Below are positions 25,201 to 63,286 of a stretch of 64,000 nucleotides of DNA, piece by piece. A model generated the notes under the pieces. The model searched no databases. It saw only the letters and a list, made by a program, of their open reading frames with translations, and was not told the DNA's origin. The stretch is taken from the NCBI RefSeq assembly GCF_027941835.1, contig NZ_CP116005.1, positions 2,185,501-2,249,500 of the forward strand, written 5' to 3'. Made by a program: the position numbers and the translations under genes. Numbering within the stretch: the stretch's first letter is position 1; each line of letters starts with the position of its first letter. The stretch comes from Sphingosinicella microcystinivorans (GTDB taxonomy: Bacteria; Pseudomonadota; Alphaproteobacteria; Sphingomonadales; Sphingomonadaceae).

Positions 25201-25492
25201 CCATACCGAGGTCAAACGGCTGCTCGATCTGATCCGCACCAGCTGTAAGGGGCAGGTAGAGCCGATCCGGGAGGTTTGCCGGGTCTTCAATGAGCGGACC
25301 GATGATGGGCGCCAGATGGGCCTCTATTCCGACCTGCTCTCTAGCGCGATCCGGTCCATGATCGAGGTGAAGGAAGAAAAGGACATCGACAGCCTGTTCA
25401 GCGGCGGTCGCACTACGGCACTCACCCATACCATCAAGGGGCTGGACGACTTCGAGCTGATCGCGTTCCTGGTCATCGAGGGGGGATCATGA
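22223..25492 (+). CDS. SNF2/DEAD-like helicase with PLD-like N-terminus, defence-associated
   Basis: 1089 residues. Residues 1-200 resemble a phospholipase-D-like nuclease domain (KIAASCFSIYAFEALKSEL, then PISGFTAVDLGYQKGD where PLD proteins carry SNFT), but no HxK catalytic motif is visible, so it is probably degenerate. Helicase motor: Walker A SVGLGKT near 276-282, VVIDESHNF near 360 (DESH box), LSATPVNNRF near 402, and the C-terminal lobe GTDCISEGQNLQDCD and QRFGRIDRIG near 825. SNF2-type helicases use ATP to move along duplex DNA. The ATG at 22223 has GGAGGCGATCC. Its stop overlaps the DUF4391 start (ATGA). It is not a usual part of type III restriction systems. Confidence 0.88.
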   Translation: MQIIDNNSHLWGDDLKQALTKSSRVKIAASCFSIYAFEALKSELSRIDSLQFIFTAPTFTPNGATDRLTKERREFFIPKARRESGLYGTEFEIQLRNKLTQRAVARECADWIRKKAKFRSNGTKAPMQQFMHVGGAADAVAYMPISGFTAVDLGYQKGDAVSNFVTRFDDPSHAQMYLQLFDQIWADPEKLQDVTNAICDHIESVYQENTPERIYFMMLYNIFRDFLEEVDEDVLPNDLTGYRDSVVWNKLFNYQKDATTGIINKLETYNGCILADSVGLGKTFTALAVIKYYELRNRSVLVLCPKKLADNWRNYNTNLTTNIFARDRFNYDVLCHTDLSRTSGESFGIPLNRVNWGNYDLVVIDESHNFRNNDVFKDRETRYQKLMNKVIRAGVKTKVLMLSATPVNNRFTDLRNQLALAYEGQSEALSKNLKTDTSIEEIFRRAQKAFNEWTSLPPEERTAASILKTLDFDFFELLDSVTIARSRKHIETFYDTKDIGKFPQRRKPLSFHCPITQRSDVMGLNDIFTQLSVLKLAVYAPISYILPSRLRKYEEIYDTQVEGGRGKLRQADRERSLQALMTTNLLKRLESSVAAFRLTLRSLGTNISRTLNAIEEFERTGRAGSVSDHLAEMSAFDPEDDDLAGLDEFTVGKKVQISLGDMDLPSWKHDLAADLVLIDDLIASMDKVTPGDDTKLQHLLSLIGQKVEAPLNVGNRKVLIFTAFADTANYLYDNLAPFAQQLGLHVGKVTGSDSPKTTLKKSYDFQGVLTLFSPRSKDKAIVLPNEPGELDILIGTDCISEGQNLQDCDFLVNYDIHWNPVRIIQRFGRIDRIGSPNSQIQLVNYWPDITLDEYINLKERVENRMVIADVTATGDDNVLTAKSSDIAYRKEQLKRMQEEVIELEDVKAGISITDLGLNDFRMDLLNYVKEHGELDNVPFGMHAIVPAQPELGLHPGVIFALKNIHDSVNVNQQNRLHPFYLVYIGDDGEIVADHTEVKRLLDLIRTSCKGQVEPIREVCRVFNERTDDGRQMGLYSDLLSSAIRSMIEVKEEKDIDSLFSGGRTTALTHTIKGLDDFELIAFLVIEGGS

Positions 25493-26247
25493 TCCTCTAC
25501 GAATGGCCTCGCGCTGCCGCTTTCGGACGCGTGATCCCGAAGAATAAGATCTACGAACATGCTGCTGCCAACACGGCGCTGAAGGACCTCTTTGTGCGCG
25601 AGGTTGACCAGATCGTCTGGTCGCACAAGCTGGCGCCCGAGACGGTCAACCTGGCGGCAACGAAGTCAGTGGCCGAGATTCAGGTCTTCCGCATCACCGC
25701 CCGCACCCCGTCGCTGGACCACGAAGTGCTGCGGGCCATCGACAAGGCTATTCCCTTCCCGCTCATTTTCGAAGTGGCCCATGGCGGCCGCGTAAGGCTA
25801 GGTGCGGCCTACAAGCGACCGAGCGAGGCCGACAGCACTCGTTGGGTGGTGGGAGACTATTTCCTAGGGGACTGGCTACCCGAGGATGCGCCGCGCGCCC
25901 CGCTTCCGGTGGCGCTAAACATGGGCGCTCTGTACGATCGGTTGCTCGAGCCCCTGGTGACGGAACAGACCAATCGGCTGGTCCCAGGCATGAACGAAGC
26001 GACGAACTCCGTTTCCGCGGTCGAAAAGCCCGCCTCGCTAGAAGAGCGCATCGCGCTCGCAGAGGCGATCAAGGCGCAGCTGCGTGAGGTCGAGCGGATC
26101 AAGTCGCGGCTGGCGCGCGAAAAGCAATTCAACAAGCGTGTGGCGATAAATGCCGAGCTGCGCGAGGCCAAACAGGAATTTGAGCGGCTGACGGCGGGGA
26201 CCGCCGACGCTGCTGTAGCGAACTACCAAGAGGAAGATCATGGATAA
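25489..26247 (+). CDS. DUF4391-domain protein
   Basis: 252 residues. The N-terminal two thirds match DUF4391 (WPRAAAFGRVIPKNKIYEHA, VREVDQIVWSHKLAPETVNLA, VAEIQVFRI). The C-terminal third (195-240) is a charged coiled coil (ERIALAEAIKAQLREVERIKSRLAREKQFNKR) suited to holding partners together. Starts in the stop of the helicase gene and overlaps the Mod gene by 8 bases, which implies coordinated production and perhaps a complex. The biochemical role is unknown; the fold may be nuclease-like, but no catalytic motif was confirmed. Confidence 0.85.
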   Translation: MILYEWPRAAAFGRVIPKNKIYEHAAANTALKDLFVREVDQIVWSHKLAPETVNLAATKSVAEIQVFRITARTPSLDHEVLRAIDKAIPFPLIFEVAHGGRVRLGAAYKRPSEADSTRWVVGDYFLGDWLPEDAPRAPLPVALNMGALYDRLLEPLVTEQTNRLVPGMNEATNSVSAVEKPASLEERIALAEAIKAQLREVERIKSRLAREKQFNKRVAINAELREAKQEFERLTAGTADAAVANYQEEDHG

Positions 26248-28192
26248 GCTGAAGATGCATAGCCCCGACCTGAGCCAGGACAACATCGCGAAGATCCGCG
26301 ACCTGTTTCCCAGCTGCGTGACCGAGGCGCGCGACGAGGCTACGGGGACAGCACGTCTGGCGGTGGACTTCGATCAGCTGCGTCAGGAGTTGATCGATCA
26401 AATTGTTGAAGGGGCTCAGGAGCGATATCGGCTGGACTGGCCAGGGAAGCGGGAAGCCTTGGTGCTGGCGAATAGCCCAATCAATAAGGCGCTGCGTCCC
26501 GTGCGAGATGAAAGCCTTCAATTTGATTCGACAAATAATCTTTTCATTGAGGGCGACAACCTGGAAGTTCTGAAGCTTTTGCAGGAATCTTACCTTGGTA
26601 AGATTGATATAATATATATAGATCCTCCTTACAACACCGGTGGCGACCTTATTTATGATGATGACTTTTCTTGTTCATCGCGCGATTTCTTTATAAACAG
26701 CTCTCAAGTTGACAAAAGCGGTAACCCGCTTGTTGCAAATATGGAATCAAACGGCCGTTTTCATTCTGACTGGATGTCTATGGTCTATCCTCGACTAAAA
26801 ATTGCACGAAACCTCCTTTCGAGTTCAGGAGTGATTTTCATTAGCATCGGAGAGGATGAGGTTGATAACCTAAAGAAAATTTGCACCGAAATATTTGGTG
26901 ATGAAAATTTCGTCGCGCAAGTGACCCGCGTTGCCAAGAGGACTTCCGACAAGGGCACGCATTTTCGTCCCACGAAGGATTACATACTTACCTATGCTAG
27001 GAATATCGAAGAATTGCCTGAGTTTGGTATCCCAAAGGATCGGGATGAAAAAGATTATAAATACAAAGATGAGACAGGCCGAAAGTATAAAAAAAGCGGC
27101 GCCTCTCTTTATCAGCCCTCCCTAGATTCTCGCCCCAACCAGAGATATTATATCGAGGCTCCAGACGGTAGCCTTATAATCCCTCCTGGCAATGTTTTCC
27201 CATCTGCGAAATCGGATGGATCAAAGGTAAAGCCTCTCTCCAATGCCGATAAGGTGTGGAGATGGTCAGTGGACACGTATCTTAAGCAAAAACATCTTCT
27301 GATGTTCACAGAGGGTTCTGACAGAAACCCCCTACTCGATGAGAATGGAAATAGGTCAAAGTGGAATATATACCCAAAAGTATTTTTTGATGAGGATGCT
27401 GAGGCAACGCTTCATCCAGAAGATATTATATATGAATTTCCTAACTCACAGGGAACTAAGGAACTAAATGCTTTGTCAATCCCGTTCAGCTTTGCAAAAC
27501 CCGTCGGGCTTATACAATACCTTCTGAAGGTTACGCGCAAAACTGACGCACTCATTTTGGATTTCTTTGCTGGCTCTGCCACCACGGCTCATTCGGTCAT
27601 GCAGCAGAATGCTGAAGATGGTGGAAACAGAGCCTTCATCATGGTTCAGTGGCCTGAAGCCTGTGATGACAAATCTGAAGCTGCGCAGGCTGGATATATT
27701 ACCATCGCAGATCTAGCAAAAGAACGTATCCGTCGCGCAGGTAAGAAGATCGTCGACGGCGAATGCCATCCAGACTGGAACCGCGATGTCGGCTTCCGGG
27801 TTCTCAAGGTAGACACCTCAAACATGAAGGACGTCTACTACCGCCCCGACGAGCTGAAGCAGTCTGACCTGCTCGATATGGTCGACAATGTGAAGGAAGA
27901 CCGCACGTCCGAAGACCTGCTGTTCCAGGTACTGGTCGACTGGGGCGTGGACCTGACGCTGCCGATCCGACGCGAGACGGTCCAAGGCAAGACCATGTTC
28001 TTCGTTGACGACAACGCCCTGGTCGCCTGTTTTGATCGTGGCGTGACCGAGGAACTGGTGAAGGAGCTTGCGAGCCGTGAGCCTTTGCGCGCCGTCTTCC
28101 GCGACAATGGCTTTGTCTCGGACGCGGTGAAGATCAACGTCGAACAGATCTTCCGTCAGCTTTCGCCGTCAACCGACGTCAAAGCAATCTGA
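26240..28192 (+). CDS. mod: Type III restriction-modification DNA methyltransferase (Mod)
   Basis: 650 residues. Beta-class N6-adenine methyltransferase order: motif IV DPPYNTG at 128-134, target recognition region in between, SAM motif [14 protein letters not shown] at 441-453. Mod recognises an asymmetric site and methylates one strand, protecting it from Res. The central 1.2 kb (about 26500-27720, residues ~90-495) is strikingly AT-rich: hand-counted bases 26521-26640 are about 37% G+C, against about 65% just upstream. Both ends match the operon's composition. This points to a swapped core by recombination. It overlaps DUF4391 by 8 bases. Confidence 0.93.
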
Positions 28193-28202
28193 GGCTGCAC
28201 CC

Positions 28203-31200
28203 ATGAAGCTGAAATTCAAGGTCCAGCCCTATCAGACCAATGCTGTTGAAGCGGTGGTGGATTGTTTCGCTGGTCAACCGAAGGTCGATGGTCTGACCTA
28301 CCGCATCGACCCTGGCCAGAAGGCACAGGCTGCCGCTTTCGAGGAAGGGTTCAAGAACGCCGATTTTGCGCTGAGCGAAGCCCAGATCCTCGAAAACATC
28401 CAGACGGTGCAACGCCGCCAAAACCTCCCCGTCGCGCAGCGGCTGGACGAGTTCATGGTGCTTGACCGGAACAATCAGCGCGTCGCCGCACCGGCGACCT
28501 ATCGCCGTGATGCTCTGGCCGCGACCCGCGTTCACCTCGATGTCGAGATGGAAACCGGCACCGGCAAGACCTATTGCTACATCAAGACCATTTTTGAGAT
28601 GAACAAGCGATACGGCTGGTCGAAGTTCATCATCATGGTGCCCTCGATCGCCATCCGTGAAGGCGTTTACAAATCCCTGCAGATCACGGCGGACCATTTC
28701 ACCGAAAGCTACGGCAAGAAGGCGCGGTTCTTTATCTACAACTCCAAGCGCCTGCATGAGTTGGAGAGCTTCTCGTCCGATGCCGGCATCAATGTCATGG
28801 TGATTAACATCCAGGCGTTTGCCGCGCGCGGCGCGGACAACCGCCGCATCTATGAAGAGTTGGACGACTTCCAGTCGCGCAAACCCATCGACGTCATCGC
28901 GTCCAACCGGCCGATCCTGATCTTGGACGAGCCTCAGAAGATGGAAGGCGCGGCAACGATGGAAGCGTTGCCGAAGTTCAAGCCGCTGATGATCTTGCGC
29001 TATTCGGCCACGCATAAAACCCAGCACAACCGCATCCATCGCCTTGATGCGCTGGATGCCTACGACCAGAAGCTGGTGAAAAAAATCGCCGTGCGCGGCA
29101 TCCAGACCCGCGGATTGGCCGGCACCAACGCCTACCTCTATCTCGAAGGGATCGACATCTCGAAGAAGGCCCCGGTAGCCAGGATAGAGATCGAGGTGAA
29201 GCTGAAGTCCGGCGAGATCAAACGCCAGATTCGGCGACTGGAATTCCGTGACGACTTGTTCGTGGAGTCAGGCGAGCTCGACCAGTATCGCGGGTTCACG
29301 ATCAGCCAGATTGATTACAACACCGACACGGTCGAGTTCACCAACGGCATCGTGCTGAATGCAGGCGAAGCCAACGGCGATGTGTCTGAGCGCGACATCC
29401 GTCGCATCCAGATCCGCGAGACGATCAAGGCGCATTTCGACAAGGAAAAGCAGCTATTTGCACAGGGCATCAAGGTCCTGTCGCTGTTCTTCATCGACGA
29501 AGTGGTTAAGTACCGGGACTACGACCAGGCCGATGAGAAGGGCGAATATGCCCGGGTCTTCGAGGAAGAGTACGAATTACTGAAGGCCGAGTATCTGGCG
29601 GAGCTCGCCATCGATAACGAGGCGTATCGGAAGTACCTTGCTGGCATAGACCGGGCCAAGACCCACAATGGCTATTTCGCGATCGACAAGAAGACGAACC
29701 GTCTGAAGGATCCATCCGTTGGGGCCCGCTCGGTCGATTCCGACGACGTGGACGCCTACGACCTGATTCTGAAGGACAAAGAGCGCCTACTTTCCTTCGC
29801 CGAACCCACCCGGTTCATTTTCTCGCACTCGGCGCTGCGCGAAGGGTGGGACAACCCGAACGTCTTCGTCATGTGCATGCTGAAGCATAGCGACAACACC
29901 ATTTCGCGCCGTCAGGAGGTGGGTCGAGGACTACGGCTTAGCGTCGACCAGCACGGCGACCGCATGGATCACCCGGCGGTGGTGCACGATATCAACGTGC
30001 TGACCGTGGTCGCGAGCGAGAGCTACAAGGACTTCGTGACAGGCCTTCAGAGGGAAATTGCAGAGACCCTCTCTTCGCGTCCCCGTCAGGCAACTGAAGC
30101 CTATTTCACCGGCAAGACGATCACCACCGAGCAAGGCCCAGTTGAGGTGACCGGTTCGATGGCGAAGCAAATCTACCGCTATCTGGTGAAAAACGACTAC
30201 ACCGACGACGCGGATCAGATTGCAGGCTCCTACCACGAAGCAAAAGCCTCCGGTGCCCTGGCGGAATTGCCCGATGAGCTAAAACCCTATGCGGACCAGG
30301 TGTTCCAGCTGATCGACAGCGTGTTCAGCGACGCGCAGTTGCCCAAGGTGGGTGATGGCCGCAAGCCCAAGACCAATCCGCTCAATGCGAACTTCGATAA
30401 GAAGGAGTTCCAGGAATTGTGGACGCGGATCAATCGCAAGGCGGTGTACCGTGTCGAGTTCGATTCTTCGGAACTGGTCAGGAAGTGCGTCAGTGCGCTG
30501 AACAGCCAACTGCGCGTTACGCCGCTGCAATACACGATTCAGGAAGGCAGACAGAACGACGGCCTGACCGACGACCAGCTCCGCACCGGCGATGGCTTTA
30601 CGGTTACGACCACAACTACCGAACAGGGAGGCTCTATCCATTCACTGGTGAAATATGACCTTGTCGGAAAGGTTGCCGAAAGCGCGCAGCTGACTCGAGA
30701 TACGGCTGCAACTATCCTTGGCCAGATCGAGCATGCAGTATTCGGGCAGTTCAAGATGAACCCTGAACACTTCATTTCCGAGGCCTCGCGGATCATCGCC
30801 GAGCAGAAGGCTGCGATGGTCATCGAGCGCTTGGCCTACGACGAAGTCGAGGAGCGTTACGACGTCGACATTTTCACTGCCAACCAGACCGGGCAGGACT
30901 TCTCTCGCGCCTCGGCGAAGCTCAAGAACCATGTCTATGACTACGCAATCACGGATTCGGATGTCGAAAGAGAATTCGTCAAAGAGCTGGACACGAGCAG
31001 CGAGGTCGTCGTGTACGCCAAGCTGCCGCGGGGCTTCCTGATCCCGACCCCTGTCGGGGATTACAACCCGGACTGGGCGATATCGTTCAAGGCTGGCAGC
31101 GTGCGGCACATCTATTTCGTGGCCGAAACCAAAGGCACGATGTCCTCGATGAAGCTGAGAGAGATCGAGAGGACGAAAATCGAGTGTGCCCGGAAATTCT

Positions 31201-31295
31201 TTGATGAAATCAGCGAACAGATCACCGAGGACCGCGTCAAATACGATGTGGTCACGGATTATGGAAAGCTGATGGAGATCGTTGGCGTAAATTGA
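28203..31295 (+). CDS. res: Type III restriction endonuclease subunit (Res)
   Basis: 1030 residues. Superfamily 2 helicase domain: Walker A METGTGKT at about 116-123, Walker B DEPQ near 241-244 (the form typical of Res), SATH near 264, and the second lobe with [15 protein letters not shown] and [12 protein letters not shown]-terminal PD-(D/E)XK nuclease: [11 protein letters not shown] near 952 and FVAETKG near 973. With Mod it would translocate and cleave unmethylated DNA (established for EcoP1I/EcoP15I). The ATG at 28203 is 10 bases after the Mod stop. It is the last gene of the operon and faces the prophage holin. Confidence 0.93.
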
Positions 31296-52438: not shown

Positions 52439-54724
52439 TCATTGCTCGTCCTCCGGATAGACCCAGACCCGGGGGTTCTCGACCGGCAGGGCCCCGCCTG
52501 ACTGGGGACATTTGAAGTGGCTGGGCAGCACCTCCAGCATCGTGGGGGATATTTCGCCGGTGTCGGGATCCGCCGTTTCGCCATTCCCAGGAATGGTCAT
52601 CCCTTCGGTGCAGAGATAGCCGAACTTCGATGTCGTTCTGGCCATGCCGTAGGGCGAGCCATCGCGGACAAACTTGATGTAGCCCTTGGTCGCCAGAACC
52701 GAGATGCGGTCCCTGATGGTGTAAGTCCCGCCAAGGCCGCCTTTGTTCTCGAACTTCTCCGCGAACTGCAGCGACGTATAGAGCCGTCCGGCAGCAGCCT
52801 CGTCGAGCAGGATGCCGAGAATGACGTCATGCTTGCGCACCCGCTCAGCATCGAGCCGGGCACCTACATCTTTGCGGATCAGCCGTTCGCTGCTTGCGTC
52901 GATCTCGACCCATTGCCCGCCACGTTTGTCTACCAGCATCGGGCCGATCGCTGGACCATTGCGCAGCTCGATCTCGAGCTTGCGCGCCGGCATTTCCTCA
53001 TCGGGCCGATGCATGATGATGCCAGACGTATAGAAACCGCGCAGCGCACTGGCGCCGGAAAGCGCCTGGAACGGGTCCTCGGCAATCTGCTTCTTGTTCA
53101 GCTTCTTGGTGTGGTGAGCGAGGATCACGCCGGCATCAGGGGCGACGGCGTCGCGCAGCTGCTCGACCCGCTGCTGCAGGAAGAACATCATGGCGCTGTT
53201 GTCGTTTTCGCCACCGCCGTCGGGCCCGCCGTCAAAAAGGTTTCGGATCGGATCGATGCAGATGATGTCCGGCGGATCGCCCGGGAAATTGGATTTGATG
53301 GCATCGACCGCCAGCGCCACGCCGCGCTCGTCGAGCAGTAGGCGCAGCTTGGGAGTGACCACCAGGTTGTCGCGGGCGGCGGCAATGACGGCAGGATCGA
53401 GCCGGATGGCCTGCAACCGCTCGCGCAGATAGTGGTACTGGATCTCTGCCTGGAGATAGAAGATCCGCAGAGGGCGCGGCGGTGTGAAGCCAAGAAACGC
53501 CACGCCCGCAGCCATGTGCGCTAGAAGGCAAATCAGAAAATCGCTCTTGCCCACCTTGGGGGCGCCGCCGAGCACGAGCAGACCGCCGGGTGTCAGAAGC
53601 CGGGGTGCGACGATGTCAGCGGGCATCGGGCTGGCGTCATCCAGCAGCGCGCCAAAGGTGAAGGCGGGCATGTCTGCCCGGCGTGCGGTTTCAGCAGACC
53701 GAAGCATCGGCGGGCCGTTGCGCTCGACATGCAAGCGCCACAGCCGATCGGATTCCGCCTTCAGGCGATCGAGGGGCCAGCTCGGCCGTAGCATTGCGGC
53801 ATTGTACTGGCAGATCGCCTCCCAGCCTTCGTCCGGGCTGATCCGGCCATCATGGACCTGCCGGATATAATGACCAATGGCGGCGCTCGCGCCCTCGAAC
53901 CGCGACCAGGCATCAGCTCCGCCTTCATGGACCGGCGTCGTCAGAACATCGGCGAGAGCGGGCTTTCCGGGCGATGAGGTAGAAGCCGCGCCAATCCCGG
54001 GCATGGGCGGCATGGCCGAAACCATCTCGGCAAAATCAGCAAGGTCCACTTCACGTTTGGCGGCGTGCTGCAGGATCTGCACCATGCGCTGGCTGCCACC
54101 CTTATGGTAGATGGTGCCCGGGACACGGATCGGCTGGTGCGCGGAGCGGAAATGGGTGTCGCCCGCCACCTTGGCAGCGATGGCACCGCGCAGAGTGCAA
54201 ACCTGCTCGACGTCGGCATCGGTCGCAGGCTCCGAGAGTTTCCACCAGACATGGAGCTTGTGCGCACCCTCAGGTGTTCGCCCGCCGCTTTCCACGATCA
54301 GAGTGGGGTCACCCAGATGCCGGGTCAGGTGGGTAAGCTTGGCACCGATATCGCCGGTGTCGATGTCGACGACGATCGCCTGCATCGCGGTGATGTCGGC
54401 AGACTTTGCCTGGCCGCTCTCCGCCACCGTGCCTGGGATCACGTAAACTGCCGCGCCTTCGCGGCCTGCCCAATTGGCAAAGGTCGTGAGCTTTTCCGGT
54501 GCGGACGCATCCGCATCAATCCAGATATTATGGGGCTTGCCCTCGATGCCCTGACCCTTGTCAATGAAGCTGCGGACCGGAATCAGACCTTCGCAATAGT
54601 CGAAGACGACGTCGAAGAAGGCAGCGATCTGGGCCGGGTCTGGCTCCAGGAACAGCTCTTCTAGCGATGCGGCATCGTTGAAATCCCGCCAGGGGTTGAA
54701 GTGGACGATGTTGTCTTCGGTCAC
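52439..54724 (-). CDS. Primase-helicase: PrimPol-like domain plus RepA-type RecA ATPase
   Basis: 761 residues from GTG at 54724, which overlaps the preceding stop (GTGA) and has GGGAG upstream. N-terminal primase-like domain (~1-280) with catalytic DID in AIVVDIDTGD near 118 and SGGRTPEGAHKLHVWW near 145-160. Helicase domain 370-600 with Walker A GAPKVGKS near 387-394, IICIDPIRN (Walker B) and AGVILAHHTKK, the RepA/hexameric-helicase pattern. C-terminal winged-helix region (~650-710). It would start and drive phage DNA replication. The repeats just downstream are a possible origin. Confidence 0.88.
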   Translation of the reverse strand: MTEDNIVHFNPWRDFNDAASLEELFLEPDPAQIAAFFDVVFDYCEGLIPVRSFIDKGQGIEGKPHNIWIDADASAPEKLTTFANWAGREGAAVYVIPGTVAESGQAKSADITAMQAIVVDIDTGDIGAKLTHLTRHLGDPTLIVESGGRTPEGAHKLHVWWKLSEPATDADVEQVCTLRGAIAAKVAGDTHFRSAHQPIRVPGTIYHKGGSQRMVQILQHAAKREVDLADFAEMVSAMPPMPGIGAASTSSPGKPALADVLTTPVHEGGADAWSRFEGASAAIGHYIRQVHDGRISPDEGWEAICQYNAAMLRPSWPLDRLKAESDRLWRLHVERNGPPMLRSAETARRADMPAFTFGALLDDASPMPADIVAPRLLTPGGLLVLGGAPKVGKSDFLICLLAHMAAGVAFLGFTPPRPLRIFYLQAEIQYHYLRERLQAIRLDPAVIAAARDNLVVTPKLRLLLDERGVALAVDAIKSNFPGDPPDIICIDPIRNLFDGGPDGGGENDNSAMMFFLQQRVEQLRDAVAPDAGVILAHHTKKLNKKQIAEDPFQALSGASALRGFYTSGIIMHRPDEEMPARKLEIELRNGPAIGPMLVDKRGGQWVEIDASSERLIRKDVGARLDAERVRKHDVILGILLDEAAAGRLYTSLQFAEKFENKGGLGGTYTIRDRISVLATKGYIKFVRDGSPYGMARTTSKFGYLCTEGMTIPGNGETADPDTGEISPTMLEVLPSHFKCPQSGGALPVENPRVWVYPEDEQ

Positions 54725-55488
54725 TGGGGCATCTCCCAGCAACGGACGGCCCACGAGCAGAAGCGGCATTCGAAATGTTCGCGGGTTCGGGTGAAGCGCG
54801 GCAGCAATTCCCCAGCATCGGTGGCTGACAGGATGCGCACGGCCTTGTCGCTCATGCGCTGGGCCAGGTCTGCATCGAACGGGACCAGTTCGTGGTGGAG
54901 TTCAGCCGTGTCCTTGTTGATCGCGGTGAACAGCGCTGGCGCGGTCGAAATCCCCGGCACGCTGGCTTCCATATAGGCCTGGTAGAGCGCGATCTGGGCG
55001 GCATAGACTGGCTTCGACAGCACGACGCCCTTCGACACGGTCTCGCGCCAGTTCTTCGCGTTCATGGTCTTGCATTCCCAGAGCGCGGGGACACGAAGCC
55101 CAAGCGCAGCAGGAGCGCCGGCGATGATCCCATCGACGTGACCGCGCAGGCGCCCGCCAGCGGCCGAGAAGCCGAACTGCTCCCCGTCCGGACGATTGCC
55201 TTTGCGGGTGAACAGATCGAGGCCGGCACCGCGCAGCCAGGCTATAGCGAGGTCTTCCAGGGCGTGACCCATCGCGAAAATCCGCAGGGTTCGGCCTGAG
55301 AAGCCCGCATTTTCGTCCATGGGCGTGGCCGTGAACTCGAACTGGAGCGCGCGCTCGCAAGAAACACCGATCCGCGAGCCGCCGAGATAATCCCGCGGGC
55401 TGCGCGCGGCGTTGTCTGCCGCGAGATGGCTATCGACGAGGGCATTCAGACGTTCGCCGAATGCGGGACGGTGATTGAAGTCCAACAT
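54721..55488 (-). CDS. PD-(D/E)XK nuclease, RecB-exonuclease-like
   Basis: 255 residues. Nuclease core HVDGIIAG...PALWECKTMNAKNW (Asp, then E-C-K) and the QxxxY motif AAQIALYQAYM. The C-terminal cysteine cluster FECRFCSWAVRCW resembles that of Cas4/AddB-type nucleases, possibly an iron-sulphur site. In phages it acts as exonuclease in recombination. The ATG at 55488 shares a base with the upstream stop. Confidence 0.85.
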   Translation of the reverse strand: MLDFNHRPAFGERLNALVDSHLAADNAARSPRDYLGGSRIGVSCERALQFEFTATPMDENAGFSGRTLRIFAMGHALEDLAIAWLRGAGLDLFTRKGNRPDGEQFGFSAAGGRLRGHVDGIIAGAPAALGLRVPALWECKTMNAKNWRETVSKGVVLSKPVYAAQIALYQAYMEASVPGISTAPALFTAINKDTAELHHELVPFDADLAQRMSDKAVRILSATDAGELLPRFTRTREHFECRFCSWAVRCWEMPQ

Positions 55489-55892
55489 CAGAACGGCACC
55501 TCCATGGGGTCGTCCACGGCTGCCTGATGCATCGCGGTCTGGAAGCCATCGATCGTGACGGTGATCAGCTGGAGCACCTGCTCCTGCGACCATGCGGATG
55601 GTGGGGCGTGCCAGCCGATCGTGTCGATCAGGGCTGCGACAGGTTGCAGCGTCGCACGGATCGCGGCCTCTTCGCGGGCGGTCAGATCAACCATGTCCTG
55701 CACCTTGCGCGCCCGCAGCCAGAAGAAGCGCTGGCAGCTGATTGAGCAGAACCACACAGAGGGGCCCGATCGTCTCGTGCGTTGCGGGCCCGACCAGCCG
55801 AAGCCAGAGGTTGGACGAAGGCAGACAGCACACAGCAATCCGCGTGGATGCCAGCACCGCAGTCGCTTTTCGGCAGAGGGCGATTTTTCCAT
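55488..55892 (-). CDS. DUF6511-like zinc-finger phage protein
   Basis: 134 residues. N-terminal CAVCLRPTSGFGW...WFCSISCQRFF gives a treble-clef-like CxxC...CxxxC cluster at ~20-55. The C-terminal helical half (REEAAIRATLQPVAALIDTIGW, SQEQVLQLITVTIDGFQTAM) belongs to a family often fused to it. Placed between helicase and nuclease genes, so likely a DNA-metabolism accessory. Confidence 0.75.
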   Translation of the reverse strand: MEKSPSAEKRLRCWHPRGLLCAVCLRPTSGFGWSGPQRTRRSGPSVWFCSISCQRFFWLRARKVQDMVDLTAREEAAIRATLQPVAALIDTIGWHAPPSAWSQEQVLQLITVTIDGFQTAMHQAAVDDPMEVPF

Positions 55893-55904
55893 GGGCGGTA
55901 TCCA

Positions 55905-57584
55905 TCACGCCGCCTCCCGCAGAGCATGCGGATCCGCGCCCATCACGAGGCCGCGGATGGCTGACTGGTTGAAGCGGAAGGAAAGCAGCGCGGAGGCGTG
56001 GTAACGCGTCAGGCCGTAGTCGGTCCGATAGGACGGCGGCAGGAATACCAACTGCTTGTCGGTCGGCGGTTGCCGCAGCCAGCCACGGCTTTTGTGGGCG
56101 GACTCGTCGCTCTCGTGGGTGTTGAGCCAGTCGTCGGCGGCAGCGAGGCAAATGCTGCGCTCACCCATGGCCAGAAGATGTGCGGACTTTTTGGGCTGAC
56201 CGCCGATGCCGTACCAGCGACCGTTCAGGAAAAAGACACCGGCCCAGGCATGGAAGCCATTGGCGACGAGTGCGGCATCGTCCCCGAACAGATCCACCCA
56301 CTCGAAGCTCGAACGCTTCAACAGGTCAATTTCGGCCATGATGAACTGGCTGAGCGGCTCGGCAGGATCGCTCGCCGAGCCTTCCCAGATGTGACCGCAC
56401 AGAGGACATTCGGTCACGGCGGCCGGCACGACAGCACCGCATTCAGGACATTCTTTGGTCGGCGCATCACCGTTGGCCTGCTTGCCATCCAGATCGACGT
56501 CCTGCTCAAGCGAGCCATGGATCAAGGTCGACGTCCCGAAGTCGAGGACAATGCAGTCGGTCTTGACGATGCCGGGATATTCTTCCGGGTTTACCGTGCG
56601 CAGGCCACGACCGATCATCTGGATCATGGTCGACTTGAACGAGCTGGGGCGCAGCAGGATGACGCAGGAGGTCGGGGGGTGATCCCAGCCTTCGGTCAAC
56701 ACAGCGACATTGACGACCACCTGAATGTCACCGGCATCATAGGCGGCCAGGGTGGCACGACGGGTCGCGTCATCCAGATCGCCATGTACGACTGCTGCGG
56801 GAATGCCGTTTGCGTTGAAGGCGTCGGCAACGTTCTCGGCATGACTGACAGTCGAGCAGAACGCGACGGTCTGGCGGTCGCCGGCTTTTTCCCGCCAATG
56901 CGCGATGACCTGGTCGGTCACGGGCGCCTTGTTCATGATGGCGTCGACCTGACCCATGTCGAAATCGGCAGCCGTCTTGCGCACCTTGCCGAGATCTTCG
57001 CGAACCCCGACGTCGATTACGAAGGTGCGCGGGCGCACGAGATGGCCCGAAGCGATCAGTTCCCCCATGCGGATCTGGTCCGCCACGTTCGTGAATACCT
57101 CACGCAGCCCTTTGCGGTCACCGCGGTTCGGTGTGGCGGTCACACCGAAGATGCGCGCCATCGGATTGAGGTGGAGAACGCGATCAATGATGCGACGGTA
57201 ACTTTCGGCGACCGCATGATGCGCCTCGTCGATCACGAGCAGATCGACCGCTGGCATGGCGTCCAGATTGGCCGGCCGGGAAAGGGTCGGCACCATCGCG
57301 AAGGTGACCTGGCCACTCCAGTTCTTGGTGGCAGCATCGATAACCGAGGTGGTCATGCCCGGATTGACCCGGGAGAATTTATCCCGGTTCTGGTCCGTCA
57401 ATTCATCGCGATGGGCCAGAACACAGGCCTTGGCGCGGCTGTCGCCGATCATCTGGCCCGCCACCGCAGACAGGATGATCGTTTTGCCTGTGCCGGTAGG
57501 AGCCACACCGAGCGTGTTGCCGTGGGTGTCGAGCGCAGACAGGCTGCGCTCGACGAAAAGGGACTGGCGGGGACGAAGGATCAT
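55905..57584 (-). CDS. DEAD/DEAH-box helicase
   Basis: 559 residues. Q-motif-like LRPRQSLFVERSL, Walker A APTGTGKT near 28-35, DEAH in LLVIDEAHHAVAES near 118, SAT-equivalent GVTATPNRGD, second lobe with LTEGWDHPPTSCVILLRP and MIQMIGRGLRT. A zinc ribbon CPECG...CPLCG at ~380-400 follows, then a C-terminal domain of ~150 residues of phage type. Probably replication or recombination helicase. Confidence 0.92.
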   Translation of the reverse strand: MILRPRQSLFVERSLSALDTHGNTLGVAPTGTGKTIILSAVAGQMIGDSRAKACVLAHRDELTDQNRDKFSRVNPGMTTSVIDAATKNWSGQVTFAMVPTLSRPANLDAMPAVDLLVIDEAHHAVAESYRRIIDRVLHLNPMARIFGVTATPNRGDRKGLREVFTNVADQIRMGELIASGHLVRPRTFVIDVGVREDLGKVRKTAADFDMGQVDAIMNKAPVTDQVIAHWREKAGDRQTVAFCSTVSHAENVADAFNANGIPAAVVHGDLDDATRRATLAAYDAGDIQVVVNVAVLTEGWDHPPTSCVILLRPSSFKSTMIQMIGRGLRTVNPEEYPGIVKTDCIVLDFGTSTLIHGSLEQDVDLDGKQANGDAPTKECPECGAVVPAAVTECPLCGHIWEGSASDPAEPLSQFIMAEIDLLKRSSFEWVDLFGDDAALVANGFHAWAGVFFLNGRWYGIGGQPKKSAHLLAMGERSICLAAADDWLNTHESDESAHKSRGWLRQPPTDKQLVFLPPSYRTDYGLTRYHASALLSFRFNQSAIRGLVMGADPHALREAA

Positions 57585-57594
57585 GGCATGCTCC

Positions 57595-58170
57595 TCACTG
57601 TGCCCAGGCGGGGCGACCGCCGGTTGCAGGTGCCGTGGAGAACTGAGGCGATGCCGCCGTCGGCGCGGCCGCGACCGATCCCATCAGCGCCGCATATTCG
57701 CGGTGGTCCGGGGTAACGGCGGCGCGAATGTCGTTCTTGTCATCGCCGTTGCTGTCGGTGCCGACATCGATGCGGGCGACGAACTCCAGTCCGTCGAGGT
57801 CGCCGAAGCCGCTGATGCGGCGTGCCGCCTGGGCCTGCGGGCTGTTGTCCTTGTCGGAAATCCCTCGCGCCGAGTTCAGCATCGAGCGCACCAGGCCGCG
57901 CCCCATATTGGCCCAGTCGGGACCCTTCGGGCTGTAGAGCCCGATCATGCTGAAGACCTTGCGCTTGGCAAAGGGGCCTTCGACCACCGTGTACTCGGTG
58001 TTCAGATAGACTGAGCCGGTGGTGCCGCGGGTGGCATAGCCGCCCGTCCAGCCCTGGCTGGGATCGTCATGACCACCGGGCCGGATGGTCACACGAACCT
58101 TGGCGAGCGTGCCCTTGGGGATGATGTTCGAGGTCTGTTTGGCGTCGTTAAAATCGTTCCAGCTACCCAT
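57595..58170 (-). CDS. Phage DNA-metabolism protein, candidate ssDNA-binding partner
   Basis: 191 residues. Beta-rich body (IIPKGTLAKVRVTIRPGG, GSVYLNTEYTVVEGPFAKRKVFSMIGL) then SMLNSARGISDKDNSPQAQAARR and a flexible Ala/Pro tail ending PAWAQ. Genes of this type lie next to Sak4-like ATPases, where an SSB-like protein is expected; an OB-fold is plausible but not proven. Overlaps the ATPase stop by 8 bases. Confidence 0.62.
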   Translation of the reverse strand: MGSWNDFNDAKQTSNIIPKGTLAKVRVTIRPGGHDDPSQGWTGGYATRGTTGSVYLNTEYTVVEGPFAKRKVFSMIGLYSPKGPDWANMGRGLVRSMLNSARGISDKDNSPQAQAARRISGFGDLDGLEFVARIDVGTDSNGDDKNDIRAAVTPDHREYAALMGSVAAAPTAASPQFSTAPATGGRPAWAQ

Positions 58171-59059
58171 GATGGGGCTCCTTGTTCAGGTCAGTTTGGG
58201 GGGATTGCGTGTCAGTGGCCGGCAGTGCAGGCAGGCCGAATTCCAGCCGTTCGCCGGCGGGCATCACGGGGCCGCGGATCTTGGCCATGAGGCGGCCCAA
58301 GTGCGGTTCCTCGACCAGTGCGAGGCGGCCGGACCGGTCCTTGGCCGGGTAGGACCAGGGGTTGATCGTCTGGCAGATGAAGGCACGCGAAGCGTTTCCG
58401 GCCTCGTCCTTCACCTCGGCCATCGTCAGGACTTCATCGACGATGCCCGGCAGCTCGAGTCCGGTCTTGGAACCGTCGATCTGCGGCTGGAAAACCTTGC
58501 GATTGAAGTCGTCCAGCTTCTCGTCGAGGATGCCGACGAACCAGACATTCTTCGTCCGGGTGTGCTGAAGGTGGGTCAGCCAGGCGATCATTTCCCGGCC
58601 GTGCAGACCATAGGCACCGCGCATGTCAGGCTTGCCGGTCTTGTCGGAAAATGCCTCGGGCTGCCCCTTGCACCACTGGAAGCACAGGCGCCCGGCAACC
58701 GTGATCGAGTCGATGAAGACTGTCTCGTACCGGTCGATCGCCGCGGCATCGCCGAACCGGGCGCACACCGCATTGTAATGCGCCTGGCTGTAGACCTGAT
58801 CGTCGCGCAGTGCCGGGTTCGGCCCGCCGATGAACACCGCAAAGTCCCGGCATTCCTCCCAGGTGCGGGGACGGATGCTGTCGCCGGTCCACCCTTCGAT
58901 GGCGAGGTCACCCGCCTCGAGGTCGAAGAACAGGGTCGTCGTTGCAGGAAGCGTCCAGAGCAGACTGGTCTTGCCGATGCCGGATTTGCCGAAGATCACG
59001 CCCTTGATGCCGCGGTTTTCTGCGAGACGCTGATCCGCCGAAATGATCGGGAGAGTCAT
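58163..59059 (-). CDS. Sak4-like AAA/RecA ATPase
   Basis: 298 residues. Walker A GKSGIGKTS at about 24-32, TLFFDLEAGD near 42-51, and TVFIDSITVAGRLCFQW (Walker B) near 113-129, the core of phage single-strand annealing or recombination ATPases of the Sak4/AAA_24 group. Works with the exonuclease and the adjacent putative SSB. 4-base overlap with the upstream gene. Confidence 0.85.
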   Translation of the reverse strand: MTLPIISADQRLAENRGIKGVIFGKSGIGKTSLLWTLPATTTLFFDLEAGDLAIEGWTGDSIRPRTWEECRDFAVFIGGPNPALRDDQVYSQAHYNAVCARFGDAAAIDRYETVFIDSITVAGRLCFQWCKGQPEAFSDKTGKPDMRGAYGLHGREMIAWLTHLQHTRTKNVWFVGILDEKLDDFNRKVFQPQIDGSKTGLELPGIVDEVLTMAEVKDEAGNASRAFICQTINPWSYPAKDRSGRLALVEEPHLGRLMAKIRGPVMPAGERLEFGLPALPATDTQSPQTDLNKEPHHG

Positions 59060-59538
59060 GCTGCGCCCTCCAGCTTGAGCTTGAAGCTGGGGGAGCCGTT
59101 GCGCACCGTCCGGGCGGTAGTGAAGGCGCTGCGAATATGGCTGGGCCAGGCCGCAAACTTGCGCTCAGAGACCTTGAAGCTGATGTCGACATATTCGCGA
59201 GGGTCTTCGCCGTCGGCCTTGATACGCTCGACCAGCTGGGCCAGTTCGAACTGATCCCAGTCGACCTTCTTCGGCAGGTCCGCGACGATCGTTACATCGC
59301 CGTCGGTAAAGCGGGCAGCGCCAAAATCCTTACCGGCATCGCCGCGCGCCTGCTGAGCGCGATCGGCATATTTGAGGGCAAGCGCACCATTGAGCCAGTC
59401 GCTGGCCAACTTGGCAAAACGCAGGCGCTCCTCGATCTCCTGCTGGAGATTGGCGAGCACCTCGGCCGGCAGGGCGACGATCTCGCCGACGGCCATGTGA
59501 ACGAAATCGTCCACGCCGATGTAGTTGGGGATGGTCAT
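59056..59538 (-). CDS. Phage protein of unknown function in the recombination block
   Basis: 160 residues. Two parts: helical N-terminus (VGEIVALPAEVLANLQQEIEERLRFAKLASDWLNGAL) and a C-terminal charged region ending FTTARTVRNGSPSFKLKLEGAA. The ATG at 59538 has GAGGG in front; a GTG at 59553 is possible. Transcribed first with the Sak4-like ATPase. No family recognised with certainty. Confidence 0.6.
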   Translation of the reverse strand: MTIPNYIGVDDFVHMAVGEIVALPAEVLANLQQEIEERLRFAKLASDWLNGALALKYADRAQQARGDAGKDFGAARFTDGDVTIVADLPKKVDWDQFELAQLVERIKADGEDPREYVDISFKVSERKFAAWPSHIRSAFTTARTVRNGSPSFKLKLEGAA

Positions 59539-59549
59539 GTCGGCCGCCC

Positions 59550-59759
59550 TCACGCCACGGCCGGCGCATCAGCGCGGGCGGTGTTGTGCCGGGCCTGGGC
59601 AGCTTCGAACGCCTCGACATCTTCGAGGCGATAAACGACGCGACCGCCGAGCTTGATGAATTGCGGGCCTTCGCCCGTCCACCGCCAGCGCTCGAGCGTG
59701 CGGTGGGAAAGGTTCCAGCGAGCGGCAAGCTCGATCTGGGAAAGGTGTCTGGTAGCCAT
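59550..59759 (-). CDS. AlpA/excisionase-like helix-turn-helix protein
   Basis: 69 residues: SQIELAARWNLSHRTLERWRWTGEGPQFIKLGGRVVYRLEDVEAFEAAQ is the MerR-like winged helix of AlpA and excisionase proteins. First gene of the recombination-replication operon; could activate it or act as a directionality factor for the prophage recombinase. Confidence 0.85.
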   Translation of the reverse strand: MATRHLSQIELAARWNLSHRTLERWRWTGEGPQFIKLGGRVVYRLEDVEAFEAAQARHNTARADAPAVA

Positions 59760-59883
59760 TGGCGTCTCCTTGGGTTCGGTTCGAAAACCTGCGGAGACAT
59801 TGGCGCTGGCGAAGGTAGGAGCCGGGAAGGAGAGAGGTAGGGCTTAGGGTAGGAATCAACGATTGAGCCCGCCGGACACAAAA

Positions 59884-59905
59884 AAGCCGCCCGAAGGCGG
59901 CTTTC
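59884..59905. terminator. Rho-independent terminator
   Basis: AAAGCCGCC-CGAA-GGCGGCTTT, nine-base stem with UUCG-type loop on the minus strand (TTCG) and A/T flanks on both sides, 22 bases after the 59927 gene stop. It separates the lysogeny-side genes from the replication operon. Confidence 0.88.
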
Positions 59906-59926: not shown

Positions 59927-60859
59927 TCAGCACTGGATCCAGCAGCGACCACCCTCCACCTTGATGAACTCCTGCCAGTCCTTTCGGCCGGAAAAGGCCT
60001 TGGTCAGCGTGTTCACGCTATTAGCGCATTCGGCCGCCTCCAGCACCGCTTCGGTCAGGCATTCGGGTTCCCCGTTCTTCCAGGCGTCATGGAGATGTCG
60101 AATAATGGCCCGATGCTTCTGGCCGGTGAATGTGTAGCGTTTCCCGCGCACCGTGACAGATCCTCCGTCTGCGGACACGGCAATTGGCACATCGGTCTGT
60201 GGCGATCCGTTTGTGATCCGAGCTGCCAACAGCGCAGGATCGACGGCAATCCCGGCCGCGTGGTCGGCCACATCGCCGATGCTGATGATCTCATGACCCT
60301 CGAACATCTGCTTTTGAAGGCGGCTGGTCGGCGTTGTACTCAACACGATTCTCAGCCCCGGCGCCGGACGCAAGCGCGTAGCGGCCACGAACGCGGACCA
60401 GCAATCTGGATCAGACAGGCGCCGCGCGACCCACAGCGGAACGGGCTTACTGCGCCCGGGCAAACGGACATTGCCGATTTCCCAGACGGCATCAGGCACC
60501 AAAGCAAGAGGTTCGGCCCCGCCCACGACCTCCAGCTGCGCCAGCATCCGCGCCAACAGCACCGGCATATTGACGCTGAACATGGTCAGGCTTTCCAGGG
60601 GCACTGTGATCCAGACCGCGGCCGGGTTGTAATAGCCAAAACAACCGTGCTCGCCCGACCAGATCAAAGGTAGCGGTTCATCACCGTGATCCAGATCCAG
60701 TGGCGCCGCGAAGGTATTTCCTAGCGGCGCCAGCAGATTGGTCTGCATCAGTTGCTTGCCTTGACGGGGATAAAAGTCGTCGAGGACCGAACCCGCGATT
60801 TTTCCGCCCGGCGTTTCAGCAATCGTCATCAGCAGCCGGGCAGCAGCCTGATCAATCAT
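59927..60859 (-). CDS. Unrecognised prophage protein, second gene of the XRE/ImmA-linked module
   Basis: 310 residues, soluble. N-terminal LLMTIAETPGGKIAGSVLDDFYPRQ resembles a helical regulatory segment. C-terminal GKRYTFTGQKHRAIIRHLHDAWKNGEPECLTEAVLEAA (about 237-275) looks like a winged-helix DNA-binding region. Starts inside the end of the 60852 gene (8-base overlap), so the two products are made together. Function not known to me. Confidence 0.6.
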   Translation of the reverse strand: MIDQAAARLLMTIAETPGGKIAGSVLDDFYPRQGKQLMQTNLLAPLGNTFAAPLDLDHGDEPLPLIWSGEHGCFGYYNPAAVWITVPLESLTMFSVNMPVLLARMLAQLEVVGGAEPLALVPDAVWEIGNVRLPGRSKPVPLWVARRLSDPDCWSAFVAATRLRPAPGLRIVLSTTPTSRLQKQMFEGHEIISIGDVADHAAGIAVDPALLAARITNGSPQTDVPIAVSADGGSVTVRGKRYTFTGQKHRAIIRHLHDAWKNGEPECLTEAVLEAAECANSVNTLTKAFSGRKDWQEFIKVEGGRCWIQC

Positions 60860-62033
60860 CGCCGCCGGTATCCCCGGACAGGATGCCCCAGCGGCGCAGA
60901 TACTTCTCGCCGATCAACTGCTCTTCCGGCGTCAGGTCCTTGAGATTGCAGCCGTGCGGCATCGTGATCGTCAGCGCCAGCACACGCCCACGCCGCGCAT
61001 CCCCCTTGGGTTGGAAAGCGATGCTAAGCTTTGCCTGGGTAACCACCCAGCCGCCGAGAAGCGGATTACGGTCGCCAAAATGCCTCGCGGCCATCTCCCA
61101 GATGGTCTCCTCACTGCCGCGCATGCACTCCAGAGTCACGCGCTGGCCCTGATTGTCCATCGGCATCAGGCGCAGCTGTTTCAAAGTGACGGACTCGATC
61201 CCGTCGGAAGCATCCCGGGGGAAAGCATGGGGCTGCTGAAGCGAGTTCAGATCATAATTGCGGGACGGCATTTTTTCGCTGGTGAACTCGATCTCGAGCA
61301 GATCACGCACCATGATCCGGGCCATGGCTTCACGGCTCTTGCTGTCGTTCGCGACCACCTCGACCACGCCGGTGGCGGGTTCATACGTCAGGGCGGCCTC
61401 GAACACCGGGCTGCGCACGCGGCGAACCAGATCGCCTGCGTCAAACTCCAGAACATCATCCGGCAAGCCCTCGCGGTACACCGCGATCTGGATCAGTTCG
61501 CAATCCTCACCGTCGAAGGTGGGGCGGCGGCGGTCAAAGATATCGATGTGGATATTGGGCGAGGCGAAGCATTCGCGCAGCGCCGCCTTGAATGCGTCGA
61601 GAGCGGCTGGATCCTTGTTCAACGGCTGATCGGCGGCAACAATGAAACCCGCCCATGAACGCCCACGGCGACGTTCATCGGTGTAGCGGACCTCCTCGGC
61701 ACGACGGAAGCGGTCCGGATGATTGAGAAACATCCAGAAAGCGCGGTCGTGCGCGCCGCCAAGGCTATCCAGAACGGCCTTGTCTTCGGCAACGCTGTAA
61801 AGTGCAATCTGGCCAACGTCGCTGACCAGCTCGCCAATCCGACCGGCGTCGAGCGCCAGGCGGGCCTTTTCGGTATCGGTCAGTTCATCGACCGCCTTCA
61901 GAAGGGGCGGCAGGATTTCGGGCTCGGGGACCGCCCAGTCGATATTTGCAGGGAGGCCAATCCCGCTGTGCTCAAAATAGGCACGGAGGGTGGGGGTGGA
62001 GGTTTTCCGAATGATGGTGGCAATCGAGGTCAT
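60852..62033 (-). CDS. Unrecognised prophage protein, first gene of the XRE/ImmA-linked module
   Basis: 393 residues, no signal or membrane span. Regions that look structured: TPTLRAYFEHSGIGLPANIDW near 15, LLKAVDELTDTEKARLALDAGRIGELVSDVGQIAL near 44, HIDIFDRRRPTFDGEDCELIQIAVYREGLPDDVLEF near 156-195, ending EEQLIGEKYLRRWGIL. I do not recognise the family. Expressed from its own promoter (62085-62113), which matches that of the XRE repressor gene. Candidate immunity, superinfection or defence function (inference from location only). Confidence 0.6.
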   Translation of the reverse strand: MTSIATIIRKTSTPTLRAYFEHSGIGLPANIDWAVPEPEILPPLLKAVDELTDTEKARLALDAGRIGELVSDVGQIALYSVAEDKAVLDSLGGAHDRAFWMFLNHPDRFRRAEEVRYTDERRRGRSWAGFIVAADQPLNKDPAALDAFKAALRECFASPNIHIDIFDRRRPTFDGEDCELIQIAVYREGLPDDVLEFDAGDLVRRVRSPVFEAALTYEPATGVVEVVANDSKSREAMARIMVRDLLEIEFTSEKMPSRNYDLNSLQQPHAFPRDASDGIESVTLKQLRLMPMDNQGQRVTLECMRGSEETIWEMAARHFGDRNPLLGGWVVTQAKLSIAFQPKGDARRGRVLALTITMPHGCNLKDLTPEEQLIGEKYLRRWGILSGDTGGDD

Positions 62034-62149
62034 GGGGGACTCCTTGAGCAGAATCAGGCGTCATTGCACGCCGATCTGCTAAAGAGCGTATTTGCGCCCA
62101 TGTGGCGGGTCAATCGAAAATCTACGCAGATTAGCGGATTTGCTGTGGA
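62034..62149 (-). promoter_or_regulatory. Promoter of the two-gene module with XRE-like operator
   Basis: -35 TTGACC (62113-62108), 17-base spacer, -10 TACGCT (62090-62085). A 24-base segment at 62120-62143, just upstream of the -35, matches 63245-63268 at 19 of 24 positions, and GCAAATACGCT recurs over the -10. This identical architecture at the XRE promoter implies common control. Confidence 0.72.
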
Positions 62150-62866
62150 TCACCCGAACAGCGATCCCTGACGATCAGATTCCCCAAGTAGTTTGAGTAC
62201 CTTGAGCCTGACTTGAGCAGCCTCCTCGGAAACCTGAAACGTCTCCATCACTGCACCAACGATCTGTCGACCATGGTCTGACCGCACTGCCACGGCAGCG
62301 TGGAGATCACGCTCCTGGCAATAATCGGACACCAGCCGGCGTATGGATGTGACCGGCATCAGTATCGCGCCGCTCACATAACCGGCTTGCCACTCCATCC
62401 AGTCATAGTTCGCGGCTTGAATGATGGTGTCGCGCTTGCAGATCGCCTTGTTTTCATGGCTGCTGCGGTCGAACAGTTGGCCATGCTGAAACTTGCCCGC
62501 CCACAGGTGCCGGTGGAAATGCACATGGCCAAACTCATGGGCCAACGTCGTGCGCAGCCGGTTCTCGCGGCGGGAATCGTTAGCCAGCCGGTCTGAGATT
62601 GCGACTTCGGGATCCCTGTCTGGATGGAAGGCGGTCACGCCTTCGACATCGTCGCCATAGATTGTCAGGTCGGCAGAGGAATCCAGGCTGGCGTCGTTGA
62701 GCTCGATCAGCAGATGGAGTTCATCGGTCGTGATACGTGGACGTGCTTCCTGGTTCCGCTTGCGGTGCAGATCCCTGACAAGCCGCTCACACTCCCGATC
62801 GAGCTCGTCGTTCGTGTAATAGGGGCGCTCTGGAAATCGGCCTTTTGGATCCCGTATCATCCTCAT
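62150..62866 (-). CDS. ImmA/IrrE-family metallo-endopeptidase
   Basis: 238 residues from ATG at 62866 (a GTG at 62938 is the alternative). Zinc motif HEFGH in RTTLAHEFGHVHFHRHLW, with a downstream acidic ligand region (YDWMEWQAGYVSGAILMP) as in IrrE/ImmA. Such proteases cut XRE-type repressors and so trigger excision or stress genes (ImmA-ImmR, IrrE-DdrO). Lies 13 bases after the XRE gene: a repressor/anti-repressor pair. Confidence 0.92.
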   Translation of the reverse strand: MRMIRDPKGRFPERPYYTNDELDRECERLVRDLHRKRNQEARPRITTDELHLLIELNDASLDSSADLTIYGDDVEGVTAFHPDRDPEVAISDRLANDSRRENRLRTTLAHEFGHVHFHRHLWAGKFQHGQLFDRSSHENKAICKRDTIIQAANYDWMEWQAGYVSGAILMPVTSIRRLVSDYCQERDLHAAVAVRSDHGRQIVGAVMETFQVSEEAAQVRLKVLKLLGESDRQGSLFG

Positions 62867-62879
62867 CGCCGTCGATCCG

Positions 62880-63206
62880 TCAGTTGGTAATGGCGCGACG
62901 GAAATTGACGAATGCCTCGGCCGCCTTGGCTGGGTCACTGACCTGGCTGCGGAGGTCGTCGGGAATCTTCCCTGCCAGCAAGAACAGAACGCCTTCGTCG
63001 ATGTTCAACACCTCCGCAAACTGCCGGATCAGGTGATCCGAGGTGGGACTGCGCCGGTCATGCTCGATGTCGTTGAGGTATTGCGGCGAGATCGGTGTGC
63101 CGTCTTCCTCTTTCATGATCCTTGCCGCCAGCTCCTTCTGGCTGAGAGCCATGGCCTTCCTGGCTTTGGAAATCTGACGTCCAAAACTCGTCCCGTCAGT
63201 GGTCAT
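62880..63206 (-). CDS. XRE-family transcriptional repressor
   Basis: 108 residues from ATG at 63206. Helix-turn-helix GRQISKARKAMALSQKELAARIMKE...ISPQYLNDIEHDRRSPTSDHLIRQFAEVLNID at about 8-72, with a short C-terminal tail. Probable prophage repressor, target of the ImmA-like protease. Own promoter at 63258-63286. Confidence 0.92.
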   Translation of the reverse strand: MTTDGTSFGRQISKARKAMALSQKELAARIMKEEDGTPISPQYLNDIEHDRRSPTSDHLIRQFAEVLNIDEGVLFLLAGKIPDDLRSQVSDPAKAAEAFVNFRRAITN

Positions 63207-63241
63207 CGGTTCATCATGGCTTGGGCCAACCCTCAAAATCA

Positions 63242-63286
63242 CGCATCTATGCGGATCAGCGTAGTTGCGAGGATTTCCGGGGTCAA
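63242..63286 (-). promoter_or_regulatory. Promoter and operator of the XRE repressor gene
   Basis: -35 TTGACC (63286-63281), 17-base spacer, -10 TACGCT (63263-63258). The palindrome CGCATCTATGCG lies at 63242-63253, over the expected start of transcription. The operator-like 24-base block 63245-63268 recurs at 62120-62143. Confidence 0.72.

Follow-up and report, generated by a model that had tools for sequence, protein, structure and literature searches.

Genes A and B, which lie side by side in a prophage within the 64,000-nucleotide stretch of DNA analysed here (the window; its source genome is 4.53 Mb), probably form a two-protein prophage switch. On comparison of sequences, an XRE/ImmA pair is predicted to repress A and B, and B, together with A, to activate the operon that follows. 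In the lysogen the XRE repressor would occupy one operator at its own promoter and two that frame the A promoter. Upon induction ImmA probably inactivates XRE, as the ImmA of the same family does in ICEBs1. A and B would then be made, and the winged helix of B would bind four repeats upstream of an excisionase-like operon, sitting in place of the -35 box and recruiting RNA polymerase; the excisionase-like, AAA ATPase, helicase and exonuclease genes would thereby be switched on. A, with a predicted RdgC/RexA-type DNA-binding fold, would work with B, perhaps as a sensor or as a DNA-loading partner. The original prediction had named superinfection immunity or defence as a possible function; as the main function it is not supported, since B looks like an activator of the neighbouring excision/recombination operon. 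The switch offers a function and testable binding sites for two unannotated protein families that recur in alphaproteobacterial prophages. The features concerned are as follows, in the order of reading on the minus strand.

63258..63286, minus strand: XRE promoter, TTGACC-17-TACGCT
63238..63257, minus strand: candidate operator at the XRE promoter, GATCCGC-ATAGAT-GCGTGAT, with 2 mismatches to RATCYGCN6GCGKATT
62880..63203, minus strand: XRE repressor gene, 107 aa (Pfam HTH_3, 1.2e-8), of the XRE2 type found in about 30 loci
62150..62938 (the start may be 62860), minus strand: ImmA-type metalloprotease gene (Peptidase_M78, 5.3e-8; HEFGH motif)
62121..62140, minus strand: candidate operator O1 of the A promoter, upstream of the -35, AATCCGC-TAATCT-GCGTAGA
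62085..62113, minus strand: A-B promoter, TTGACC-17-TACGCT, its layout kept in XRE2 loci
62073..62092, plus strand: candidate operator O2 of the A promoter, over -10/+1, GATCTGC-TAAAGA-GCGTATT, the only match without mismatch in the window, and conserved
60852..62033, minus strand: gene A, 393 aa, predicted RdgC/CENP-N/CENP-L-type fold
59927..60859, minus strand: gene B, 310 aa, an N-terminal part with no clear match and a C-terminal winged helix
59930..60190, minus strand: the winged helix of B, residues 224-310, PhoB/OmpR type (VIA Z of about 7 to VanR, CovR and PmrA)
59880..59903, minus strand: intrinsic terminator downstream of B, hairpin and T run
59814..59853, minus strand: tandem array of four direct repeats of the CCTACC type, 11-12 bp apart, predicted sites of B
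59797..59802, minus strand: -10-like hexamer CAATGT downstream of the array, with no -35
59550..59759, minus strand: HTH_17 (excisionase/AlpA-like) gene (HTH_17, 2.4e-8; PHROG excisionase, 1.8e-9), with which the predicted target operon opens
54721..59538, minus strand: rest of the early recombination/replication region, encoding a 160-aa protein, AAA ATPase, a 191-aa protein, helicase, an 89-aa protein and an exonuclease-like protein

A and B are open reading frames that overlap by 8 bp. Their predicted position next to an XRE/ImmA pair was confirmed, the HTH_3 and Peptidase_M78 (HEFGH) genes adjoining them, and so was the closing terminator, a hairpin and T run at 59903-59880. The pair is of the ImmR/ImmA type, consisting of an XRE repressor and an adjoining M78 protease with HExxH. 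Neither A nor B matched a Pfam family (E<=1), PADLOC or NCBIfam, a PDB sequence search with the A and B profiles gave no match, and an Rfam search returned no RNA element. They are not ordinary replication proteins; had they been, this would have counted against the original prediction by its own criterion. The gene order of 54721..59538 is conserved in related loci, its function names being read from the sequence by eye and not from gene-by-gene tests. The integrase side of the prophage extends just past the window, with a DUF2924-like gene followed by a serine recombinase. A second DUF2924-like gene and serine recombinase, probably of another integrated element, are found at 15339-17458 (plus strand). 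An island at 21412-31295 (plus strand) carries a WYL regulator, an HKD/Snf2 helicase (PADLOC C3a139, 2.5e-132), a type III methyltransferase and a type III restriction enzyme.

Homologues of A occur on 53 viral contigs and at 72 genome loci, the hosts being nearly all Alphaproteobacteria, with a few Gammaproteobacteria and one Magnetococcales bin. B follows A almost always. Genes in the related loci were called with a codon model made ad hoc. Their typical order is serine-recombinase module, XRE/ImmA, in some loci a small DUF2188-like or nuclease-like gene, A, B, excisionase-like gene and recombination genes; the XRE/ImmA pairs are of two types, codirectional (as in the window) and divergent. 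Loci found via the downstream AAA ATPase may hold other cassettes in the A-B slot; one of these pairs an S24 repressor with a protein of 229 aa, the final 85 residues of which match the winged helix of B (E 1.5e-10). Since other cassettes fill the slot, A-B appears to be an exchangeable module of a regulatory slot and not a fixed replication gene. At L184 a distant A homologue is followed by a B-like neighbour and a CCCACC array before its next operon; this neighbour, called B by position, a winged-helix hint and the array only, gave no significant alignment with the B profile. Several loci differ in smaller ways. An SNase-like ORF of about 80-89 aa takes the usual DUF2188 place between XRE/ImmA and A in L018, L019, L041 and L045. 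At L145:4146-6793, and likewise in L140, L142 and L153, the A-B slot holds a protein of 262 aa and a QatC-like one of 600 aa with an HTH-like C-terminus. In Porphyrobacter sp. GA68 an A fragment (L127:9016-9291, 93% identical) lies beside a serine recombinase remnant in a decayed prophage.

The promoters of A-B and XRE had been described as twins, and TTGACC-N17-TACGCT does occur at 62113-62085 and 63286-63258 on the minus strand, these being the only two exact matches in the 64 kb. A 24-base block had also been proposed as shared by the two promoters. The similarity is real (62143-62120 against 63268-63245, 19/24 identical), and the best local match of the two upstream regions was equalled in 0.5% of dinucleotide shuffles; the register of the block, however, is about 8 bp off the likely operators, and a 20-bp XRE operator (RATYYGC-N6-GCGKAT) fits better and replaces it as the shared element. 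The shared element at the A-B module had been placed upstream of the -35, which holds for O1 but not for O2, which lies over -10/+1. A perfect inverted repeat, AATCCGCN6GCGGATT, is found at the XRE promoter in four loci (L004, L020, L078 and L163). Counted in the codirectional loci at up to 1 mismatch, with both strands of palindromic sites and some near-duplicate loci included, the operator sequence has 61 occurrences ahead of A, 22 ahead of XRE and 17 elsewhere in 428 kb. The divergent XRE type has a different palindrome (GTTCG...CGAAC), while the two-operator layout at the A promoter is unchanged. Control of A-B by XRE is supported by this conservation and by the two XRE/ImmA pairs, with different operators, flanking the A promoter alike. 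Of the repressor-controlled, protease-inducible cassette first proposed, the XRE control and the ImmA linkage are thus well supported by inference from operators conserved across divergent loci, and inducibility by the protease would follow from the ImmA family. XRE was also considered as a direct regulator of the excision operon and rejected, the B-HTH gap of the window holding no operator, barring a look-alike in the terminator stem (59884-59903).

The AlphaFold model of B (pLDDT 87) places a PhoB/OmpR-type winged helix at its C-terminus, which aligns with many members of that family at VIA Z 6-7 over 80-89 residues; the first 220 residues have no clear match. Pfam returned neither a Trans_reg_C match (a weak hit, 0.044, was obtained in the distant B of L184 only) nor a Response_reg match in B. 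PhoB sites are 11-bp direct repeats upstream of a -10, with no -35. B resembles the PhoB/OmpR regulators in the fold of the C-terminal domain and in this arrangement of repeats, and differs from them in having an unmatched N-terminal part and the partner A in place of a receiver domain. Phage AcaML1 (Gp6) and the loci L182, L193 and L197 encode A and B as one fused protein; these natural fusions, together with the overlapping genes, suggest that the two proteins act jointly.

The model of A (pLDDT 90) matched CENP-N (Foldseek 9.7e-5; VIA Z 9.3 over 112 residues) and RdgC (Foldseek 4e-4; VIA Z 6.6 over 215 residues), with the CENP-L/Iml3 group also among its matches, so that the top matches listed are one fold group. 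An RdgC/CENP-N/CENP-L-type fold is suggested for A, although Z values of this size are not conclusive. A differs from these best structural matches in its low identity (about 5-16%), the low whole-chain TM-scores and a helical N-terminal part of its own. RexA is absent from the matches listed, which is no evidence against a RexA fold. As a sequence relative of lambda RexA, A was rejected on hhalign profile comparison (probability 0.1%).

The window holds a single array of this kind, at 59814-59853 (score 36, against a shuffle maximum of 29), which lies past the B terminator and before the excisionase-like operon. Because the terminator separates B from this operon, the predicted target operon would need its own, seemingly assisted, promoter. 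Related arrays have four repeats at 11-12 bp spacing, in most loci 53-56 bp ahead of the ATG of the next operon, and reach p<=0.024 in most loci, the best value attainable with 40 shuffles; in the TTCTCYC class the third repeat is degenerate and several loci are not significant. A -10-like hexamer lies 10-12 nt downstream in 65/84 arrays (13 expected), and 80/84 match a -35 at two of six positions at most. This class II geometry is typical of activators, though no proof of activation. No convincing array was found in the fused A-B loci (L182, L193, L195, L197 and AcaML1).

Repeat identity follows the identity of the B winged helix, with r 0.66 and, once A, the HTH gene and the remainder of B are controlled for, a partial correlation of 0.61 (p 0.001), in permutations that ignore phylogeny and with a contribution of hitch-hiking, since B and the array are adjacent. 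Two phages, L006 and L010, share 94-99% identity up to and including A and 96-98% from the HTH gene onwards, and between these stretches B and the array have been swapped as one block. B looks like a sequence-specific activator of the neighbouring excision/recombination operon. That the HTH/excisionase protein itself binds the repeats, with A-B unrelated to them, has a precedent in the excision factor RdfS, which binds its own promoter (PMC11963761), but is extremely unlikely here: the partial correlation of the repeats with the HTH gene is 0.03 once B is accounted for, phages with an identical HTH protein have different arrays, and operons for polyubiquitin-like proteins (see below) carry the array with no adjoining HTH gene. 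It is less improbable, yet still very unlikely, that B binds the array as a Cro-like repressor and keeps or turns the excision operon off. The array does occupy the site of RNA polymerase, and binding alone would leave the sign of regulation undecided; such a repressor, however, would act at a promoter which in 80 of the 84 arrays has no -35 for transcription independent of B, and the terminator behind B leaves the operon in need of a promoter of its own that is apparently assisted.

Lambda RexA is reported to be an immunity-region protein of the RdgC/Iml3/Chl4 fold and to bias the lambda switch to the lytic state (PMC11077077). A Rex-like pair for superinfection exclusion or defence, induced on XRE cleavage, with A as effector and B as regulator or partner, is unlikely as the main function, in spite of the RdgC/CENP-N fold suggested for A and reported for RexA (PMC11077077) and the position of A beside a repressor, as rexA lies beside cI. 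The slot in relatives also holds AbiE, RES-type toxin-antitoxin or QatC-like genes, and operons for polyubiquitin-like proteins follow A-B elsewhere. Against exclusion, the specificity of B tracks the array at the neighbouring operon, and lambda expresses its rex pair in the lysogen, where A-B looks repressed. A has no detectable sequence similarity to RexA, and its partner is a soluble winged-helix protein and not RexB: no 19-residue window of B exceeds a hydrophobicity of 1.6, while RexB has 51. Neither A nor B has a PADLOC match. A second or side role of A in Rex-like exclusion, by way of the fold reported for RexA, is possible alongside the activating switch. AbiEi/AbiEii-like genes lie between B and the excisionase-like gene in L026, L037, L040 and L086, the array being kept directly upstream of the latter.

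The design of the proposed switch resembles SetR-SetCD and FseA-RdfS, and by the tests made its proteins belong to none of those families. SetR represses setCD, and SetC and SetD are FlhCD-like, whereas A and B have no FlhC/FlhD homology (Pfam, E<=1). In SXT/R391 SetCD is, like A-B, a two-gene activator complex of a mobile element; it binds near the -35 as a class II activator, and expression of int/xis needs it (PMC4344509). In ICEMlSymR7A, also an alphaproteobacterial mobile element, the activator FseA is made from two reading frames and turns on the gene of the excision factor (PMC10359603, PMC11963761). FseA has DUF2285/DUF6499 and an inverted repeat as its site, in contrast to the PhoB-type winged helix and four direct repeats of B, and Pfam gave no DUF2285 match in A or B at E<=1. 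ImmR/ImmA of ICEBs1 and CapH/CapP share with the locus an XRE repressor adjoining an ImmA-type protease. PADLOC found no CBASS cyclase or effector at the locus, only a capP-like protease match (1.8e-11), and the target here would be the activator pair. A literature search, largely of papers open without subscription, found no description of such an A-B relay.

The module extends beyond excision genes. In four gammaproteobacterial loci (L056, L121, L123 and L124, one of them a plasmid) A and B are followed by a CACACC-type array and then a polyubiquitin-like protein, with no adjoining HTH gene; further downstream, JAB and ThiF/E1 genes could be recognised in L123 and on the plasmid. Operons encoding such polyubiquitin-like proteins have been described as type 6e (PMC1779556). 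In these elements the same A-B module would drive the polyubiquitin-like/JAB/E1 operon, which is predicted to respond to a switch of this design. A-B might even be the founding example of a mobile sensor-activator that is widespread, in which a protein of the RdgC/CENP-N/RexA fold senses the state of DNA (e.g., DNA that is damaged or invading) and thereby allows a PhoB-like partner to fire the operon behind the array, be it excision genes in phages or, in conjugative elements, an operon for ubiquitin-like conjugation. This reading is speculative and rather unlikely as it stands; were it true, RexA's influence on the lambda switch would be left over from such a role. The proposed switch would connect transcriptional switching with the RexA/RdgC/CENP-N fold, and the exchange of B with its array in nature offers a ready recognition code (CCTACC, CCTCCC, TTCTCYC, CCCACC and CACACC). 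In L193 (4235-7386) and L197 the fused A-B is followed by a 240-aa protein that has the look of a sigma factor, with a region 4-like end, suggesting a different output.
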